64,000 bases of DNA from Oceanidesulfovibrio indonesiensis. GTDB lineage: Bacteria; Desulfobacterota; Desulfovibrionia; Desulfovibrionales; Desulfovibrionaceae. Of this stretch, positions 15,755 through 57,835 are shown one piece after another (position 1 is the first letter of the stretch; each line of letters opens with the position of its first letter). A model generated the notes under the pieces. The model worked only from the letters and a program-made list of their open reading frames with translations. It searched no databases and was not told where the DNA came from. Where the stretch lies: NCBI RefSeq assembly GCF_007625075.1, contig NZ_QMIE01000020.1:1-64000 (forward strand), given 5' to 3'. The position numbers were made by a program, and so were the translations under genes.

Positions 15755-15880
15755 TATTACTTGGAGTACAAAATTCTTTAACTCCGCGTTTCCACGGCAC
15801 TCGCCGCATGACCACGCTTCGAGCGCGGCCGTCCATATAACTGGGGAGCGAAAATGCGAAATTTTCTGCTCCCAGTTATA
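15755..15880 (+). repeat. Structured intergenic repeat, copy A
   Basis: This is the first of four copies of a roughly 126-bp element. It begins TATTACTTGGAG and ends CTCCCAGTTATA. The right half is a long hairpin: TATAACTGGG pairs with CCCAGTTATA and the inner AAAAT/ATTTT continues the stem. The left half and centre are more diverged than in the other copies (GGCACTCGCC replaces the GC-rich centre). The element lies between the RRM gene and its terminator, so it is likely part of that transcript. Confidence 0.85.
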
Positions 15881-16480: not shown

Positions 16481-16608
16481 TATTACTCAGAGCAGAATCT
16501 TTGAAACATTCTGCTCTCGCGGCGTTCGCCGCGTGGCCCCGCTTTCTGCGTGACCGTGCTTATTACTTCGAACCACAAAATGTTTCGCATTTTGTGCTCT
16601 CAGTAATA
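16481..16608 (+). repeat. Structured intergenic repeat, copy B
   Basis: This 128-bp copy begins TATTACTCAGAGCAGAAT and ends GTGCTCTCAGTAATA. It keeps the GC-rich centre GCGGCGTTCGCCGC exactly. The left arms are AGAGCAGAAT and ATTCTGCTCT, and the right arms are CACAAAATG and CATTTTGTG. These sequences differ from copies C and D, yet both arms changed together so that pairing is kept. Confidence 0.88.
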
Positions 16609-23470: not shown

Positions 23471-23596
23471 TATTACTGGGAGCAAGAAATTTTAAACTTC
23501 TTGCTCCCGCGGCGTTCGCCGCGTGGCCCCGCCTGTAGCGTGGCCGTCCTTATAACTGGGGCGCGAAAATGTAAAGATTTTCTGCTCCCAGTAATA
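23471..23596 (+). repeat. Structured intergenic repeat, copy C
   Basis: This 126-bp copy is the cleanest. It opens TATTACTGGGAGC and closes GCTCCCAGTAATA, a 13-bp perfect terminal inverted repeat. Left hairpin arms are GGGAGCAAGAA (23478-23488) and TTCTTGCTCCC (23498-23508). The centre has the perfect hairpin GCGGCG-TT-CGCCGC, followed by GTGGCCCCGCC. The right half is a second A/T-rich hairpin. It lies between the divergent flagellin-like and EF-hand genes. Confidence 0.9.
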
Positions 23597-30522: not shown

Positions 30523-33500
30523 ATGCCGCTTGCCTCGAACAGACTTTCCCGAAAGCTCATTCTTCAGGCGCTCACGCTCTGCGCCGTGATCTTCTTTATT
30601 TTCGGAAGCATCGAAACCTACTCCTCTTACCGTCAGCGCTTCGACGCCGTCGGCAAGACCGTCGCGGACATCCGAAAAAGCCACCTGCCGGCCCTTTCCG
30701 AGGCATTGTGGGTGCTGGACGAACGGCTCATCGCCGCCAGCCTGGAAGGCATCTACGATCTGGAGTTCGTCGAGCGCGTGGTCATTCGCGAGGGCGCCGA
30801 TGCAGTCGCCACGTTCGGCGCCGTTCAGTCCAGGGACGTGATGGTCGAGCTTTTTCCTTTGCACGCCACATATAAGGGCAGTGTACGGGACCTCGGCAAG
30901 CTGGAGGTCATCTTCGGACTGGACAGACTGCACGCCGCGTTCCGGCGCGATCTGGCTACGTTCTTCATACGGCAGAGCGCGGAAATTCTGTTCATCGCCG
31001 CCGTGCTCTTCCTGCTTTTCCATTTCCATGTCACGCGGCCCCTTACAGCCATGGCCAACCAGGCCCAGGCGCTGGACATGACCACGGGCCTCAAGCCGTT
31101 CGTACTGCCGCGCCGGCCCTCCCGCGCCAGCCGTCAGGACGAGCTCGACGCCGTAGTCGAAGCACTCAATGACATGGAAACGCGAGTGCAGGCCTCGCAC
31201 GATGCCCTGCAGCAGGAACTGGATCTGCGGCGCGCCACCGAAAGCCAGCTTCGCGAGGCGCGGGACAATCTGGAGCGCCGGGTGGAAGAGCGCACGCACG
31301 AACTCGGGAAAGCGAACATGGAACTCGATCTGGCCAACGAAGAACTGGCCGCCACGAATGCGGAGCTCATGGGAATAAACCAGGAGCTGCATTTCGAAAT
31401 CGAGGAACGTAAACGCGCCGAGCAAGCGCTGCGGGAAAGCGAGGCGCGGCAGCGCACCATAGTCGAGCGCATGCCGGTCATGCTCGTCGCGTTCGATGAG
31501 AGCGGCTCCATTGTCGCCTGGAACAGGGAATGCGAGCGGGTATCGGGGTATTCGGAAAAAGAGATGGTGGGCAAAGCCGAGACGCTGTCCATGGTGTGTC
31601 CGGACGAGGCGCTTCAGGAGGAAGCTGTCAACTCGTTCCTCGCCGAGACCAACTTCCGCGGCATCCACATTCCATTTGTCTCCAAGAACGGCACCATGCG
31701 CTCCATCGCCTGGTCGTCCATCGCCCAGACCTTTCCCATTCCGGGCTGGCACACCTGGGCCATTGGCGTGGACGTGACGGACCGCGAAACCGCCCAGCGC
31801 GAACTCAAAGGCCTGAACCGCGCTCTGGAGACTCTGGGGCAGGCGAACGAAGTCGTCCTGTTCGAGAATGACCCTGAGACGATGTGTCGCGAGGTGTGCA
31901 GAATCGGCGTGGAGAGCGGCGGGTACGCCTTCGTCTGGATGGCCTGCGCAGAATCGCAACAGGAGGGATTGCACGCCCTCGCCTCATTCGGTCCGCACGA
32001 AACTTTTCTCGACTACCTGAAGGAGCCATGGACCGATCCGGATTTGAGCAAAGACCCAGTGAACTCGGCTCTGCTGTCGAACCATTATTCGCTGGTGCGC
32101 TCCATACCCGACGACGAACCGTTCCATCCCTGGCTGGAAAAGGCCACGCTGGAAGGATTTCGATCCTGCCTTGCCCTGCCTCTGGTCTGCGGCGCACACA
32201 CCATAGGCGCATTGAGTTTCTACTCCTACGCCCCGGACGCCTTCGACGCCAAGGAGATCGAGGTGCTGGAGCGGCTGGCGAACAACCTCGCCCACGGCCT
32301 GCATTCACTGGACCTCGACGCTCGCAGACATCAGGCGGAACAGGATCTGCGCCGCCAGGAAAGCCTGCTTCTGGAGACCCAGGCCATCGCCAGAGTCGGC
32401 GGCTGGGAGCTCGATCTGACCACAGGCGACGGCCATTGGACTCCTGAGACGTATCGCATTTTCGGAGTCGATTCGGACTTTGTTCCAAACCTGCCCGCAG
32501 TGCGTACGTTCTTTCCGGAAGAAGCCCTCATTCGCGCACTGCACAAGGAATCCAGCGCTACGGGAACTTCCTTCGAGATTGAAACGCCCATCCTGACTGC
32601 CCAGGGCGAACGCCGCTTCGTTCGCCTGCAGGGCACCACGCACCTCAGCGACGGCAAGCCCGTCAAGACTTCCGGCGTTGTCCAGGACATTACGGAGCGC
32701 AAGACCGCCGAGCAACATCTGGAGCGGATCTTTCTCCACTCGCTGGACATGCTCTGCATCATCAGCTTCGAGGGGGACTTCCTTGAGCTCAACCCCGCCT
32801 GGGAGCGGACGCTGGGCTGGAGCCTGGATGAGCTGAAGAGCCGACACTGGCTCCACTACGTCCATCCTGAAGACCATGACGCCACCATCGAAGCGACAAG
32901 CAGGCTGCTTGCCGGCGAAGCGCTCACCAACTTCCAGAACCGATATCTCCACAAAGCCGGCGGATTTCGCTGGCTTTCATGGAACTCCTTTCCGGAAATG
33001 GAAAGCCGCCGAATGTTCGGCGTGGTGCGGGATGTCACACAAAACCGCCTTGAACAGGAAGAGCTTTTGGCCGCCAAACAACAGGCCGAGGCCTCCAATA
33101 TGGCCAAAAGCGAATTCCTGGCAAACATGAGCCACGAGATCAGAACGCCCATCAACGGGGTGCTCGGCATGCTCCAACTCCTCAGCATGACCGAACTCAA
33201 TGACGAGCAACGGGACTTCGTCGACACAGCCAGGTCGTCCGGCGAGAGCCTTCTCGCGCTCATTTCTGACATTCTCGACCTTTCTCGCGTGGAAGCCGGC
33301 AAGATGCTCATCACAGAAAGCCCGTTCGAGATCGAATCCGTCATCCAGACATTGCGCGATACGTTCCGCGAGACCGCCCGGCACAAGGGCATCCACCTTG
33401 GCGTCAATCTCGATCCCGCCACGCCGAAGGGGCTTTCCGGCGACGCAGGCAGACTGCGGCAGATCCTCTTCAACCTGGTGGGCAACGCCGTCAAGTTCAC

Positions 33501-34245
33501 GGAACGCGGCGGCCGTGTGGATGTGGACATTTTCACTGTCCCTGCCGCCGAAGAAGACATGTTCTACCTTGTGGCATCGGTGGCCGATACCGGCATCGGC
33601 ATGGACGAGGACATCCTGAACCACATCTTCGAGCCTTTCGCGCAGGCAGAGGTAGCCTACTCCCGCGCCTACCAGGGCGCTGGACTGGGGCTCGCCATCG
33701 TCAAGCGACTCATCCGTCTGCTGGGCGGCGAGATCTGCGTGGAGTCGACCGTGGGCCAGGGTACTACCTTCTGTTTCAGCATTCCCATGAAACGGCATGA
33801 GCCTCTCGTGGAGATACAGCCGGTGCCGGAATCTTCGCCCCGTAAAGGCCCCCTGCGCATCCTCGTCGTGGAGGACAACAACATCAACCGCTACGCTCTC
33901 GTCTCCATGATCAACAAATGGACTCACGAGGCCGTGGGGGCAGGCAATGCGGAAGAGGCTCTGGACATGCTCGCCAGCGAACGATTCGACCTGGTGCTCA
34001 TGGACGTTCAGATGCCGGGCATGAACGGCCTGGAGGCCACGCAGATCATCCGCTCTGGAGAACGCGAAAACATCGATCCGGCTATCCCCATCCTCGCCAT
34101 ATCGGCCTACGTCATGCCAGGAGACAGGGAGACGTTCATGGAGGCCGGCATGAACGAATACTTCTCCAAGCCCGTGGACATGAACGCTCTGAAAAAGTAC
34201 CTGGATGCATTCGGCAGCCATCACGATTCCTCCACGGAACCATGA
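30523..34245 (+). CDS. Large hybrid sensor histidine kinase with PAS, GAF and receiver domains
   Basis: This 1,240-residue membrane kinase has two membrane helices (about residues 12-30 and 147-167) around a periplasmic region of 115 residues, then a HAMP-like region and coiled coil to about 300. Next come a PAS domain (305-425), a GAF domain (440-605), two more PAS domains (about 620-725 and 735-850), and the HisKA domain with phospho-acceptor His871 (ANMSHEIRTPIN). An ATPase domain follows (GNAVKFTERG, DTGIGM, GAGLGLAIV). A receiver ends the protein, with Asp1161 (LVLMDVQMPGMNG). It follows a binding protein by three bases. Confidence 0.94.
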   Translation: MPLASNRLSRKLILQALTLCAVIFFIFGSIETYSSYRQRFDAVGKTVADIRKSHLPALSEALWVLDERLIAASLEGIYDLEFVERVVIREGADAVATFGAVQSRDVMVELFPLHATYKGSVRDLGKLEVIFGLDRLHAAFRRDLATFFIRQSAEILFIAAVLFLLFHFHVTRPLTAMANQAQALDMTTGLKPFVLPRRPSRASRQDELDAVVEALNDMETRVQASHDALQQELDLRRATESQLREARDNLERRVEERTHELGKANMELDLANEELAATNAELMGINQELHFEIEERKRAEQALRESEARQRTIVERMPVMLVAFDESGSIVAWNRECERVSGYSEKEMVGKAETLSMVCPDEALQEEAVNSFLAETNFRGIHIPFVSKNGTMRSIAWSSIAQTFPIPGWHTWAIGVDVTDRETAQRELKGLNRALETLGQANEVVLFENDPETMCREVCRIGVESGGYAFVWMACAESQQEGLHALASFGPHETFLDYLKEPWTDPDLSKDPVNSALLSNHYSLVRSIPDDEPFHPWLEKATLEGFRSCLALPLVCGAHTIGALSFYSYAPDAFDAKEIEVLERLANNLAHGLHSLDLDARRHQAEQDLRRQESLLLETQAIARVGGWELDLTTGDGHWTPETYRIFGVDSDFVPNLPAVRTFFPEEALIRALHKESSATGTSFEIETPILTAQGERRFVRLQGTTHLSDGKPVKTSGVVQDITERKTAEQHLERIFLHSLDMLCIISFEGDFLELNPAWERTLGWSLDELKSRHWLHYVHPEDHDATIEATSRLLAGEALTNFQNRYLHKAGGFRWLSWNSFPEMESRRMFGVVRDVTQNRLEQEELLAAKQQAEASNMAKSEFLANMSHEIRTPINGVLGMLQLLSMTELNDEQRDFVDTARSSGESLLALISDILDLSRVEAGKMLITESPFEIESVIQTLRDTFRETARHKGIHLGVNLDPATPKGLSGDAGRLRQILFNLVGNAVKFTERGGRVDVDIFTVPAAEEDMFYLVASVADTGIGMDEDILNHIFEPFAQAEVAYSRAYQGAGLGLAIVKRLIRLLGGEICVESTVGQGTTFCFSIPMKRHEPLVEIQPVPESSPRKGPLRILVVEDNNINRYALVSMINKWTHEAVGAGNAEEALDMLASERFDLVLMDVQMPGMNGLEATQIIRSGERENIDPAIPILAISAYVMPGDRETFMEAGMNEYFSKPVDMNALKKYLDAFGSHHDSSTEP

Positions 34246-37041: not shown

Positions 37042-37166
37042 TATTACTGGGAGCAAGAAATTTTAATTTCTTGCTCCCGCGGCGTTCGCCGCGTGGCCCC
37101 GCCTGGAGCGTGGCCGTCCTTATATCTGGGGCCCGAAAATGTAAGAATTTTCTGCGCCCAGTAATA
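37042..37166 (+). repeat. Structured intergenic repeat, copy D
   Basis: This 125-bp copy is close to copy C. It opens TATTACTGGGAGCAAGAAA, has the perfect GCGGCGTTCGCCGC centre, and closes GCGCCCAGTAATA. The left hairpin arms are identical to copy C. It directly follows the terminator of the gene at 36584, inside the tandem gene family. Confidence 0.9.
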
Positions 37167-37665
37167 ATTTCTGCGACTATTTCTTCTGTCTTTCTTTTGC
37201 TCGTGACAAACATCCCACAATCTGCAATATTATTGTTATGATGTGGCTTATCCTCCATGAGGTCGCCATGTTGCTGGGGACCAGTGCGTTGCGCGAGCGT
37301 TCGGGATCCGTCAACATGGGGAGGAACTGCTGAGCGCCAGCGACTTCCGGGAATGTCAGATGGAATGCAAAATTGTTCACGTCCTGTTCCCTCGACTTCC
37401 GCCGAATAGTCCCACTGTGGGCATGGCCGTCCTTATGACTTAGAAGCGCCACACAACAATTTTCTGATCCCGGTCTTGCTCCGCAGCATGATGCGGGAAC
37501 AGCGGCAACGATTTGAGGGGAGACCTGAGGCTATCGCAATGGGTCGTGACACTGCGGCATGAAGCACGTTTCGTCTCCAGGCGGCAGACCACAGCTCACT
37601 GCCCGACCATTGGCGGGACGGCTTCGCCTGATCGTCTTCCCCGGCACTTTTTCAGGAGGGCACCC
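37167..37665. other. Intergenic region with a decayed repeat
   Basis: This 499-bp gap lies between repeat copy D and the second YPxHDLYYD gene. It contains the decayed repeat at 37421-37473. Open frames here do not look coding. Confidence 0.5.
37421..37473 (+). repeat. Decayed right half of the structured repeat, copy E
   Basis: GCATGGCCGTCCTTATGACT matches the junction GCGTGGCCGTCCTTATAACT of copies C and D, and AATTTTCTGATCCCGG matches their right end. The left half is not recognisable. It lies 255 bp from copy D. Confidence 0.6.
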
Positions 37666-38415: not shown

Positions 38416-38808
38416 ATGAACCACATCGCATCCTGGTTCATGACGATACTCGCTGGAATTCTCGCAGCCGTCATGATGGTGTTCACGCCTCGGGCATTCA
38501 AGAACAGTTTCGATGCATTTGCATGTGCAGAAGATGAAAACGGGCTCCGCATTCTCGGAGGAACACCCCGTTTTCTGCCATTCAGGCAACGCCCCATGTA
38601 CATTTTCTACCCGCAGCATGACCTGTATTACGATATGACCCTCACGCGTGATTTGACCCTCACGCGTGATTTACAATTCGCCAACAGTAACAGACGTTCA
38701 TGCACTACGAATTCGGAAAAGGCATCGCCAGGGCAGCCCGCATCCGGGGGGATGAGTATGTACAAACCATCTCCACGCCTCGGTAAGCACAAAAAAGGCT
38801 CCCGCTGA
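38416..38808 (+). pseudogene. Degenerate YPxHDLYYD-family protein, copy 3
   Basis: An open frame of 130 codons starts with a membrane segment (SWFMTILAGILAAVMMVF) and reaches the family motif MYIFYPQHDLYYDM. There it is broken by a tandem 18-bp repeat that encodes TLTRDL twice. After it the sequence no longer resembles the family and is polar and basic. The expected 'GPFFTIE' part is absent in all three frames. The best reading is a third copy that decayed after a repeat expansion or rearrangement. GGAG precedes the ATG at 38416. Confidence 0.65.
38637..38672 (+). repeat. Tandem 18-bp repeat inside the third family copy
   Basis: ACCCTCACGCGTGATTTG is followed directly by ACCCTCACGCGTGATTTA. 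The unit contains the palindrome TCACGCGTGA. It encodes TLTRDL twice and marks where the protein loses similarity to its paralogues. Confidence 0.85.
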
Positions 38809-42251: not shown

Positions 42252-44486
42252 TCACGTTGACGTCTTGGATCCCTGATCCGACAGCATTCCCTGGATGGCG
42301 CGCACGAGTGCTTCGGCGTCGAACGGTTTGTTGAGGACAGCATTGACGCCCGCGGCCAGGCAGCGCTCTCTGTCACCATCTCCGGAGAACTCATTCAGTG
42401 CGATGACGGGCATCTTCGGATTCACTCCCTGGATACGACGCCCTCTGATTGCGTGCACTATCTCAAGACCACTCCTGGACGTGTACTGCATGTCCAGCAC
42501 CGCAAGATCGAATTTCACTGACTGAAGCATTTGCAACGCTTCCGTCGTGTCATGCGCCTGGCCCACTTCCATACCCCACTGCCTGAGAACCTGCGATGTG
42601 GAATCCGGCCCGTGCTGAGTCGCAGCAGCTTCCACCAGAAGCACGCGGGCCTCGGCAAGTCCTGACCCCGCCTGCTTCCGTTCGTCCTGCTCTGCGGATA
42701 CTATGCCCTGCGATGTGGGCAATGGCACGCAGACCTTGAACGCGCTGCCCATGCCGAGCTCACTTTGCACCATGATGATGCCGCCCATCCGCTCCACCAG
42801 CTGTTTGCAGATGGCAAGGCCCAAACCGGAACCGCCGCTGCGCTTGGTGATGAAGTCCTCGGCCAGAGTAAAGCTCTCGAAAATGGTCTCCTGGCTCTGC
42901 GCCGAGATGCCGGGCCCCGTGTCCCGAACGCTGAAGGCGAACGGCGCGTATCCTTCTTTGCATGGCTCGGAAAGCAGGTCCGGCGCAATGCCCATCCACA
43001 CGTCCACCCGCCCTGATCCCGTGAACGTGACGGCGTTGTGCACGATGTTGATAAAAATCTGTCGCAGTCGGTCGGCATCGCCGATGAGGAACGGTGGCAT
43101 ATCGCTATCCCTCGTGCAGGCGAACTCCAGCCCCTTGCAACGGGCTTGCGTGGCGAATGCCTCGCAGATGGAAGCGAAAATGCGTCTGGTGGAGAAACTC
43201 GCCTGGTTGAGAGCCAGCCTGCCGTTTTCCAGGCTGGAAAGATCAAGGAGATCGTTGACGATACGCAGCACCTGGCCTGCGGAGTACATGATGTCCCGAC
43301 AGCTTTCCCGCTGCGTCTCGGAAAGACTGGTCGCCAGGAGCAGCTGCGTCATGCCCATAATTCCGTTGAGCGGCGTCCGCAGCTCATGGCTCATGTTGGC
43401 CAGAAACTCCGTTTTCGCCCGGCTGGCGGCCCTCGCTTCGTCCCGGGCCGCGGTGAGGGCGTCGTGCATCTGACGGTCTTCGGTCACGTCGCGGCTCAGA
43501 CAGGCCATTCGGTCCACATCGCCGTGGGCGTTTCTGAGCGGAAAAATGGAAAGCTCGTAGCGCCTGTCCATATAGACATCTTCCAGGACTATGGATTCCC
43601 CGCGGCGCCTGATCTCGCGAAAGCGTTGCAAACGCGGCCCATAGTAGTCCTGAGGCAGCAGCTCTTTGAGCGCACGGCCCTGGACGTTCTCCGGTTTCTC
43701 GCCGAGAATCGCTGCGGCTTGCCTGTTGACGTCCACAACCACGCCCTCCCCGTCGACGATGGTCATGCCGTCCTGGCTGGCCTCGAAAAACGCGCGGATG
43801 GTGGCGTTTTTCTCTTCGAGCGCCCTGTCCGCAGCCTCGGTCCTGCTTCGCTCCTCGGCGAGCATGCTGCTGGTCTCGCTCAGTTCTCGCTTGCGCTCTT
43901 CAACCTGTTGTTCGAGGTGCCTGTTCATTTCGCTGATGCGCCCGTACAACTCGAAGCTCTCCAAAGCCTGGGCTGCGCCCGAGAAGATGATGGTCAACAG
44001 GGCAAGGTAGGGATCGAGAATCGTCTCCTTGGGCTGGTCCAGAACGCCGACGAATATGCCACGCACCCGGGAGATGGTGGCCAGGGAATGGACCAGAAGC
44101 GTGGCGTCCATCGTATGTGCGGGCAGCATGACCGGCTTGCTGCGGCCGAGCGCCCAGGAAAACGTCTGGTTGGCGATGAGCGCGTCGACCTCTTCCTCCA
44201 TGCGTGAGCGCATATCCCCAGGCGTGCATATGGCGAGGTTGAAGTCGGAGTCCGCCTCATTGACCATGTACAGGGTCATGGCCTTGAAGCGTATGAGTGT
44301 CTGCACTTTTCTGGCCGTTTCCTGGAGGATAGGCACCGGGCTGTCCAGCTGGTTGAGGCTGGAGGCGAACGAGCCCATGGAGCCGGCCAGCTCCAGGGCG
44401 TTCAATGCGCGCCGGCGCTCTTCTTCGAGGCGCTTGATGCGCTCCTCGTAAGGCTCCGGGTTGAATGGGGCCATGTTATCTTTCAT
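42252..44486 (-). CDS. Hybrid sensor histidine kinase with degenerate receiver
   Basis: This 744-residue soluble kinase has a GAF-like N-terminal domain (about 40-190), a coiled coil, a PAS domain (about 228-340), and the HisKA domain with His367 (ANMSHELRTPLNG). An ATPase domain follows (IVHNAVTFTG, DTGPGI, GGSGLGLAI). The C-terminal receiver keeps the likely phospho-acceptor Asp (LAVLDMQYTSRSGLE) and the lysine (NKPFDAE), but the acidic pair that binds Mg2+ is altered to 'VEAAATQ'. The gene overlaps the upstream HDOD gene by 11 bases, so the two are co-expressed. Confidence 0.93.
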   Translation of the reverse strand: MKDNMAPFNPEPYEERIKRLEEERRRALNALELAGSMGSFASSLNQLDSPVPILQETARKVQTLIRFKAMTLYMVNEADSDFNLAICTPGDMRSRMEEEVDALIANQTFSWALGRSKPVMLPAHTMDATLLVHSLATISRVRGIFVGVLDQPKETILDPYLALLTIIFSGAAQALESFELYGRISEMNRHLEQQVEERKRELSETSSMLAEERSRTEAADRALEEKNATIRAFFEASQDGMTIVDGEGVVVDVNRQAAAILGEKPENVQGRALKELLPQDYYGPRLQRFREIRRRGESIVLEDVYMDRRYELSIFPLRNAHGDVDRMACLSRDVTEDRQMHDALTAARDEARAASRAKTEFLANMSHELRTPLNGIMGMTQLLLATSLSETQRESCRDIMYSAGQVLRIVNDLLDLSSLENGRLALNQASFSTRRIFASICEAFATQARCKGLEFACTRDSDMPPFLIGDADRLRQIFINIVHNAVTFTGSGRVDVWMGIAPDLLSEPCKEGYAPFAFSVRDTGPGISAQSQETIFESFTLAEDFITKRSGGSGLGLAICKQLVERMGGIIMVQSELGMGSAFKVCVPLPTSQGIVSAEQDERKQAGSGLAEARVLLVEAAATQHGPDSTSQVLRQWGMEVGQAHDTTEALQMLQSVKFDLAVLDMQYTSRSGLEIVHAIRGRRIQGVNPKMPVIALNEFSGDGDRERCLAAGVNAVLNKPFDAEALVRAIQGMLSDQGSKTST

Positions 44487-57565: not shown

Positions 57566-57835
57566 ATGTTCTCACTCAATGGCGTCGCCATAGACACCTC
57601 CACCATGGCCTACACGGCGCCGGCCGCGCGGGAGACGTTCACGGCGCCGGCCGCCAGAATCACAGTGACGGCGCCGCCCGCGCGCACAGTGTTCACGGCG
57701 CCGCCCGGGCGCGAAATATATGCGCACCCGGCGGGCAATGTCGTGGTCCAGGGCAGCGGTTTTCTCGTTACCGGGCCGGCCACCAACATGAACTTCGACG
57801 TATTGGCCGGCCGCATCGTCAACACGCGGGCGTAG
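57566..57835 (+). CDS. Small protein with tandem TAPAAR-type repeats
   Basis: This 89-residue protein has four degenerate repeats of about eight residues at positions 17-50: TAPAARETF, TAPAARITV, TAPPARTVF and TAPPGREIY. The C-terminal part is 'VVVQGSGFLVTGPATNMNFDVLAGRIVNTRA'. Alternating polar and hydrophobic residues suggest a short beta-solenoid. There is no signal peptide. GAAGGGAG lies ahead of the ATG. No family was recognised. Composition is strongly repetitive at DNA level too (ACGGCGCCGGCC units). Confidence 0.7.
   Translation: MFSLNGVAIDTSTMAYTAPAARETFTAPAARITVTAPPARTVFTAPPGREIYAHPAGNVVVQGSGFLVTGPATNMNFDVLAGRIVNTRA

Follow-up and report, generated by a model that had tools for sequence, protein, structure and literature searches.

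The 64-kb window (the whole stretch of 64,000 nucleotides that was analysed) carries four clear copies of a short repeat, designated A, B, C and D, all on the + strand. The repeat is approximately 126 bp long, is bounded by ends of the form TATTA...TAATA and contains four hairpins, H1 to H4. The copies, the parts of copy B and a candidate fifth copy are located as follows.

15755..15880, + strand: copy A; left hairpin decayed, right hairpin intact.
16481..16608, + strand: copy B, a whole subfamily B element (TATTACT ... AGTAATA); E 1.7e-32 with covariance model R1.
16481..16487, + strand: left terminal repeat of copy B; its outermost TA is taken as one target copy, the duplication being known from other copies.
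16488..16518, + strand: left hairpin H1 of copy B (arms 16488-16499 and 16507-16518), containing four double-changed pairs.
16519..16532, + strand: hairpin H2 of copy B, GCGGC GTTC GCCGC; no kept double changes seen.
16535..16555, + strand: hairpin H3 of copy B.
16561..16608, + strand: right hairpin H4 of copy B; its outer arm is the right terminal repeat.
16602..16608, + strand: right terminal repeat of copy B, AGTAATA; its outermost TA is taken as the second target copy, again with the duplication known from other copies.
23471..23596, + strand: copy C, subfamily C (young, abundant).
37042..37166, + strand: copy D, subfamily C.
37354..37478, + strand: candidate fifth copy, weak and strongly decayed; E 8e-4.

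From left to right, the element consists of a terminal repeat, TATTA(C/A)T, followed by GGGAGCA and then by H1, H2, H3 and H4. H1 has 12 positions per arm and H3 has 8; H2 is made of GCGGC, a 4-base loop and GCCGC. The ends are of the TATTA(C/A)TGGGAGCA type and form an imperfect terminal inverted repeat that begins with TATTA on both sides; each end has a subterminal hairpin, and the other two hairpins lie between these. The left and right terminal repeats are alike, and each has its own inverted copy next to it. In a set of 95 full copies (60 from the same genome as the window, 7 from a genome of the same genus, G001, and 28 from a genome of another genus, G006), the left end is TATTACT in 54/95 copies, while the right end, read inward, is TATTACT in 44/95 and TATTAAC in 15/95, usually with GGGAGCA next. 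In the inner arm of H4, TATAA is common in place of the TATTA of the true end, which places an A.A mismatch at the fourth pair of this hairpin (78/95 copies; Watson-Crick in 8/95). Outside G006, 60 of the 67 copies have a C.T mismatch at the fifth H3 pair, and within G006 three H3 pairs are rewritten on both arms. Folding of the + strand as single-stranded DNA gave z-scores of -4.65, -6.30, -6.50 and -6.82 for copies A, B, C and D, respectively, with 0/200 shuffles folding as well for each of the four. The opposite strand of copies B and C folds slightly better than the + strand.

The genome from which the window derives (330 contigs, 99.74% complete) has covariance model matches at 63 places at E<=2e-17. 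At E<=0.01 there are at least 126 matches among the 150 of 2302 candidates that were scored, some of them being one place matched on both strands. Most of the copies used fall into subfamily C (47 copies, mean identity to the consensus 0.945), which is young and abundant; subfamily B is older (10 copies used, mean identity 0.871), and copy A is an outlier to both. The range of the element is patchy: the model matched 4 of 39 genomes and, under stricter filters than those of that scan, 9 of the 297 scanned from the order, the window's own genome being included in both counts. A strict left-end pattern was found in 14 stretches of genome contigs, all from the MAG Desulfovibrionaceae bacterium nDJH2bin10; viral contigs held no match to this pattern, and plasmids no match to copy C in a blastn search.

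Variant forms were also observed. In G024, a genome from another family of the order, several copies belong to a longer version of about 149 bp, which has one more hairpin and stem variants of its own (L081, L084, L093, L096, L099 and others). Solo hairpins of about 45 bp occur with proper ends on both sides at L151:1383-1427 and L152:1560-1604 and, further, at L143:2073, L149:2015, L145:2001 and L154:1118; a B/C hybrid is among the solo hairpins, which look like minimal or deleted forms of the element. At L136:266-394 (C14:15938-16063 in the genome of the window), two outward-facing right ends, one C-type and one B-type, lie around a central hairpin, and the model matches on both strands. This arrangement suggests recombination between subfamilies.

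The first-pass annotation had claimed that, relative to copy C, four base pairs in the left hairpin of copy B differ in both partners and still pair (G-C to A-T, A-T to G-C, G-C to A-T and A-T to T-A). This was borne out; in the common frame of the alignment the four H1 pairs are 9-38, 15-32, 16-31 and 18-29. The right hairpin, also as claimed, is rewritten yet paired, with CACAAAATG opposite CATTTTGTG in copy B and GAAAAT opposite ATTTTC in copy C. The outermost pair of H1 is lost in copy B (C.C), and its innermost position is unpaired in both (A.C in copy C, C.C in copy B). When all copies are considered, the B-type pair is present at the four positions in 8, 8, 9 and 8 of the 10 subfamily B copies of this genome, and the C-type pair in 43, 41, 44 and 40 of the 47 subfamily C copies; pair 9-38, for example, is A-T in 8/10 B copies and G-C in 43/47 C copies. 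The four B/C differences are marks of the subfamilies and are not private to copy B. Compared with the B consensus, copy B has private changes in paired columns that disrupt three pairs and form one. Since these changes are mostly pair-breaking while the new pairs are shared by the subfamily, copy B is to be seen as a decaying copy with an inherited re-paired hairpin. Inversion of the arm region would not be expected to produce the differences, because an inverted perfect hairpin should retain its own sequence.

Changes in the 95-copy set were counted on a tree of 94 distinct rows, using the common frame with 45 pairs, and compared to 300 null histories that preserved the number and type of changes on each branch. 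In the main count, ancestral ties were resolved alike for all columns. The set excludes 16 of the 111 places in the fetched loci, whose coverage or identity was too low, and the G024 copies, which are longer and lie beyond the five subfamily consensuses; it includes part of the copies present in G006. Internal branches carried 16 double changes that preserve pairing against 1.1 expected, and 29 pair-breaking single changes against 50.8 expected, with 0/300 nulls as high as the former and 0/300 as low as the latter; pair-losing doubles numbered 2 (1.1 expected). When the structure was slid by 1-3 columns, only 0 or 1 pairing-preserving doubles were scored on internal branches. On terminal branches there were 11 such doubles (4.2 expected) and 140 breaking singles (160.0 expected), the deficit of the latter residing mainly in G006. 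Pair-losing doubles were in excess on these branches, 14 against 5.9 expected (0/300 nulls as high), indicating that changes cluster on one pair for other reasons too. Neither chance nor simple duplication accounts for these results, given the tree null, the controls with a slid structure and the z-scores from folding, in keeping with the earlier suggestion that these elements are distinct from plain duplicated DNA. The accompanying claim, that the fold is selected or required for mobility, finds aggregate support in the 16 internal doubles.

Much the same comparisons were made on parts of the set. G006 alone yielded 9 pairing-preserving doubles against 0.6 on internal branches and 6 against 0.8 on terminal branches, and its terminal branches had 20 breaks where 36.0 were expected; this constraint at the tips may reflect lineages that were still active. 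With G006 removed, the doubles numbered 3 against 0.3 internally (1/300 nulls as high) and 6 against 3.0 terminally, and internal pair-losing doubles 2 against 0.4. Resolving ancestral ties column by column gave 13 internal doubles against 0.7 and, under the same treatment, 5 pairs with at least two pairing-preserving doubles against 0.23 expected. All four Watson-Crick pairs occur among the lineages at pair 15-32: A-T in most copies of subfamily C and of G006, G-C in subfamily B, C-G in the G001 copies and T-A in four copies of G006. In 18 copies from the window's own genome, 84.4% of cells were paired versus 80.5% in shuffles, and 38 cells were changed on both sides versus 19.0 (5-14 with the structure slid). 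A per-pair G-test with APC correction and the tree null returned 0/45 pairs significant at E<0.05, a score that cannot separate columns changed on one deep branch; the covariation term from RNAalifold, applied to 32 copies of which 30 belong to subfamily C, was +0.26, which lends no support, and 4/36 predicted pairs showed change on both sides. The kind of test proposed in the first-pass annotation, a statistic over many copies, gave support in the aggregate; the significant individual pairs in both hairpins that it called for were not obtained. Support for selection on pairing is aggregate, not per pair, and leans on G006.

Internal branches had pairing-preserving doubles and breaking singles in a ratio of 16:29, and terminal branches in a ratio of 11:140 (Fisher's test, p 1e-5). 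In subfamily C alone, internal branches had 0 preserving doubles against 0.1 expected, while terminal branches had 65 breaks against 70.1 and 2 doubles against 1.4; private changes in this youngest subfamily break pairs at about the chance rate. From the contrast between branches, and from the loss of pairs at close to chance level in subfamily C, it is apparent that pairing matters to the lineages that make copies and little to resident copies. The contrast between spreading and resident copies points to mobility as the role of the fold.

Double changes that restore pairing would also be the product of templated (quasipalindrome) correction, a known mutational route in hairpins whereby one arm templates the other during replication and complementarity arises without selection. 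The preserving doubles found on terminal branches as well (11 against 4.2) are in line with such a process. However, arm-to-arm copying is disfavoured because the mismatches persist, the A.A of H4 in 78/95 copies and the C.T of H3 in 60/67 copies outside G006. Moreover, resident subfamily C copies lose pairs at close to the chance rate (65 breaks against 70.1), and terminal branches likewise have more pair-losing doubles than expected (14 against 5.9). Templated correction therefore seems an unlikely source of the pattern.

If the elements acted as RNA, their hairpins serving in mRNA stability or termination, selection by the host would be expected on each resident copy. PMC2229807 characterises MITE transcripts as extensively base-paired and reports effects of Correia and ERIC elements on mRNA. 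There is also a hint that one particular strand folds: the internal branches have 20 single changes to A.C and 8 to G.T on the strand as written (p 0.036), as if it were the opposite strand that folds; on terminal branches the figures are 66 and 59. Little or no constraint after insertion is seen, however, in the abundant young subfamily, and the gene setting is mixed. According to a crude gene caller, the 62 copies with enough flank lie in 31 tandem, 10 convergent and 10 divergent gaps, with 2 inside an ORF and 9 without a called neighbour; 20 of the copies in tandem gaps are oriented opposite to the genes and 11 along them. By the same crude caller the copies are dispersed and mostly intergenic, 60/62 being outside a called ORF (including the 9 without a called neighbour). 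A search of the window for known structured RNAs returned 0 Rfam 15 matches at the gathering score. An RNA role of this kind has, in our judgement, a slim chance of accounting for the fold.

The 27 pairing-preserving doubles are distributed as 17 in H1, 7 in H4, 3 in H3 and 0 in H2. It is conceivable that the hairpin arms are inverted binding sites for a transposase, both of which change as the specificity of the protein changes and not on account of pairing; the resemblance of the terminal repeats to each other, each with its adjoining inverted copy, agrees with this. If the hairpins were made of two binding sites, the left and right ends would be expected to change together. Instead, changes in the left hairpin are rarely mirrored on the right: of the 17 doubles in H1, 2 are accompanied by any change at the homologous right-end pair and 1 by the same change in the right outer arm. 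In addition, the internal hairpin H3, which is outside the terminal repeat, has three preserving doubles of its own. The changes in H1 fit pairing rather than shared protein sites, and the binding-site interpretation is quite improbable, on a par with the RNA one.

The copies occupy numerous sites that are unrelated to one another. The insertion site was examined by joining the flanks of copies with one TA. Empty sites with a single TA and no gap at the junction were found for 4 of 82 copies, as listed below.

Empty site 1: copy nested in another copy; 89 bp, 84%, 0 gaps.
Empty site 2: L077, nested copy; 42 bp, 81%, one gap off the junction.
Empty site 3: L178, paralogous repeat; 76 bp, 80%, 0 gaps.
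Empty site 4 (weaker): copy A compared with G001; 131 bp, 71%, gaps off the junction, single TA.

The single TA in the empty form at the four sites implies that insertion duplicates TA. L092 also matched a repeat in L089 of G001 (89 bp, 76%), but this alignment is interrupted at the junction by a gap of one base and does not read TA. L029, L109, L119, L173 and L177 were rejected as empty sites, being self-matches or ends of neighbouring elements. At L109:204-457, L177:3402 and L173:4577, the element seems to be placed at the terminal TA of an older element, whole or fragmentary, the neighbours appearing to have one TA in common. The sites of copies B, C and D showed no readable junction in G001: the flanks of copy B could be aligned and were too diverged, and those of C and D were compared through local matches only.

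In the flanks of 94 copies, no duplication was found beyond the terminal TA. A or T is present at positions -3, -1, +1 and +3 in 65, 66, 81 and 70 of the 94, respectively, against a background of 0.443, and in 45 and 44 at -2 and +2, where there is no preference. The target looks like a palindrome centred on TA, as is the case for the IS630/Tc1-mariner group. Symmetric insertion at TA is typical of enzymes acting on double-stranded DNA. Such a target does not explain the fold, because double-strand enzymes generally do not need folded ends.

Candidate mobilising enzymes were sought in the genomes that carry the element. DDE_3 gave no match in any of the 4 carriers tested (the window's own genome, G001, G006 and G024), and matched at E<=0.001 in 7 of 35 other genomes. 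DUF4096 had one decayed or partial match in each of three carriers; element ends were not found beside these matches. A search with the end pattern produced 155 matches in the window's own genome. Fifteen stretches around unpaired or partial ends, drawn from the matches listed, contained solo hairpins, element fragments and complete copies, and in none of the 15 was a gene noticed between facing ends. Thus, by end pattern (among the matches listed), DDE_3 and DUF4096, no parent element or transposase sharing the ends was found, 3 of the 4 carriers being draft assemblies. As draft assemblies can miss multi-copy insertion sequences, the absence of an enzyme is weak evidence.

The coexistence of solo hairpins and longer elements is reminiscent of REPINs, and raises the possibility of a REPIN or an IS200/IS605-derived element moved by a Y1 enzyme (RAYT/TnpA) through folded single strands. 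Members of the IS200/IS605 group are not known to make a target duplication and use a one-sided target motif, whereas here TA is duplicated and the A/T preference is two-sided. The ends begin with TATTA (TATTACT and TATTAAC being the commonest) and not with a GTAG or CGTC tag. Y1_Tnp (PF01797) had no match in the window's own genome, although 5 of 14 control genomes matched. Compensatory hairpin changes are described as common in REPINs in PMC3116915, and the GTAG or CGTC tag is placed at one end of REP/REPIN sequences in PMC3733652. Overall, an origin of this type is largely refuted by the target-site evidence and must be considered very improbable.

We consider it probable that the repeats are a new family of non-autonomous, TA-targeting mobile elements, MITE-like in character, whose folding helps their mobilisation. 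An enzyme supplied in trans would recognise the ends only, or best, when they are folded, the folded state being either an extruded cruciform or a folded single strand that would be read together with the TATTA terminal sequence. The enzyme would then cut at TA and join the element to a new TA. Copies without a fold would drop out of copying and decay. A more specific form of this scheme, that the ends are read in the folded state by a system outside both Y1 and DDE_3, which targets TA, duplicates it on insertion and has a target preference on both sides, is put forward tentatively and is, on balance, doubtful. If it were true, structure-read ends, as in single-strand transposition, would be combined with a target site of the double-strand type, and the repeated switching of stem pairs would be the evolutionary footprint of a system that reads folded ends.

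Bacterial MITEs are small, measuring 50-500 bp according to PMC10969869, and are too short to encode a transposase. The present repeats share with MITEs their size of about 126 bp, the terminal inverted repeats, the TA duplication and the many dispersed, mostly intergenic copies. Of the features of IS630/Tc1-mariner MITEs, they have insertion at TA with a 2-bp TA duplication; no DDE_3 match turned up in the four carriers tested. The repeats are filed here as a new family within the MITE kind and not as a member of IS630. Judged by analogy, the family would work like TA-ended bacterial MITEs, the tested features being found except for a known parent.

The closest resemblances are to elements catalogued in PMC2229807. 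There, Correia/NEMIS, ERIC/IRU and RUP are given as about 100-200 bp long, with terminal inverted repeats, 5'-TA-3' termini, target duplication, many copies and highly paired single strands, in all of which they are like the elements described here. Unlike the stem formed by pairing of the 5' and 3' ends in Correia, ERIC and RUP, each end folds alone in the present family and two hairpins lie between. For RUP, the same text names IS630-Spn1 as candidate transposase, whereas the four carriers tested yielded no DDE_3 match. CIR elements of Caulobacter and Brucella, compared by description, are similar in having a terminal TA and two long stem-loop arms with a linker; they are listed in that source as lacking the terminal inverted repeats that are present here. 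REPINs with their RAYT enzymes, as portrayed in PMC3116915, are likewise short repeats made of inverted hairpins in which compensatory changes are common; they differ in that the present genome has no Y1 match and the elements duplicate TA and have another terminal sequence.

Among the papers listed for Desulfovibrio or Desulfovibrionaceae, most subscription papers lying outside this scope, no title or opening part of an abstract described the repeat family. Likened by description, the small dispersed repeats of cyanobacteria and bcr1 of the Bacillus cereus group, from other organisms, are also hairpin-rich dispersed repeats in which pairing is kept. PMC2267715 tabulates bcr1 among stem-loop repeat families. 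Small palindromic repeats are common in bacteria, and whether their folds serve the host, mobility or nothing is usually unclear. There are enough related copies here to begin separating these explanations, and the question of the fold is now testable, since the element, its ends and its TA target are defined and naturally re-paired variants exist for comparison.

Other repeats were noted in the window. Positions 57613-57712 hold a G+C-rich tandem repeat of 3.7 units of 27 bp, and positions 38632-38672 one of 2.3 units of 18 bp. Two diverged pairs are in inverted orientation, 33090-33183 with 43338-43431 (70%) and 33438-33502 with 43019-43083 (78%); the bases near 33.1 kb match many places in G001 and G006, and the pairs near 33.1 and 43 kb probably represent a common protein domain.
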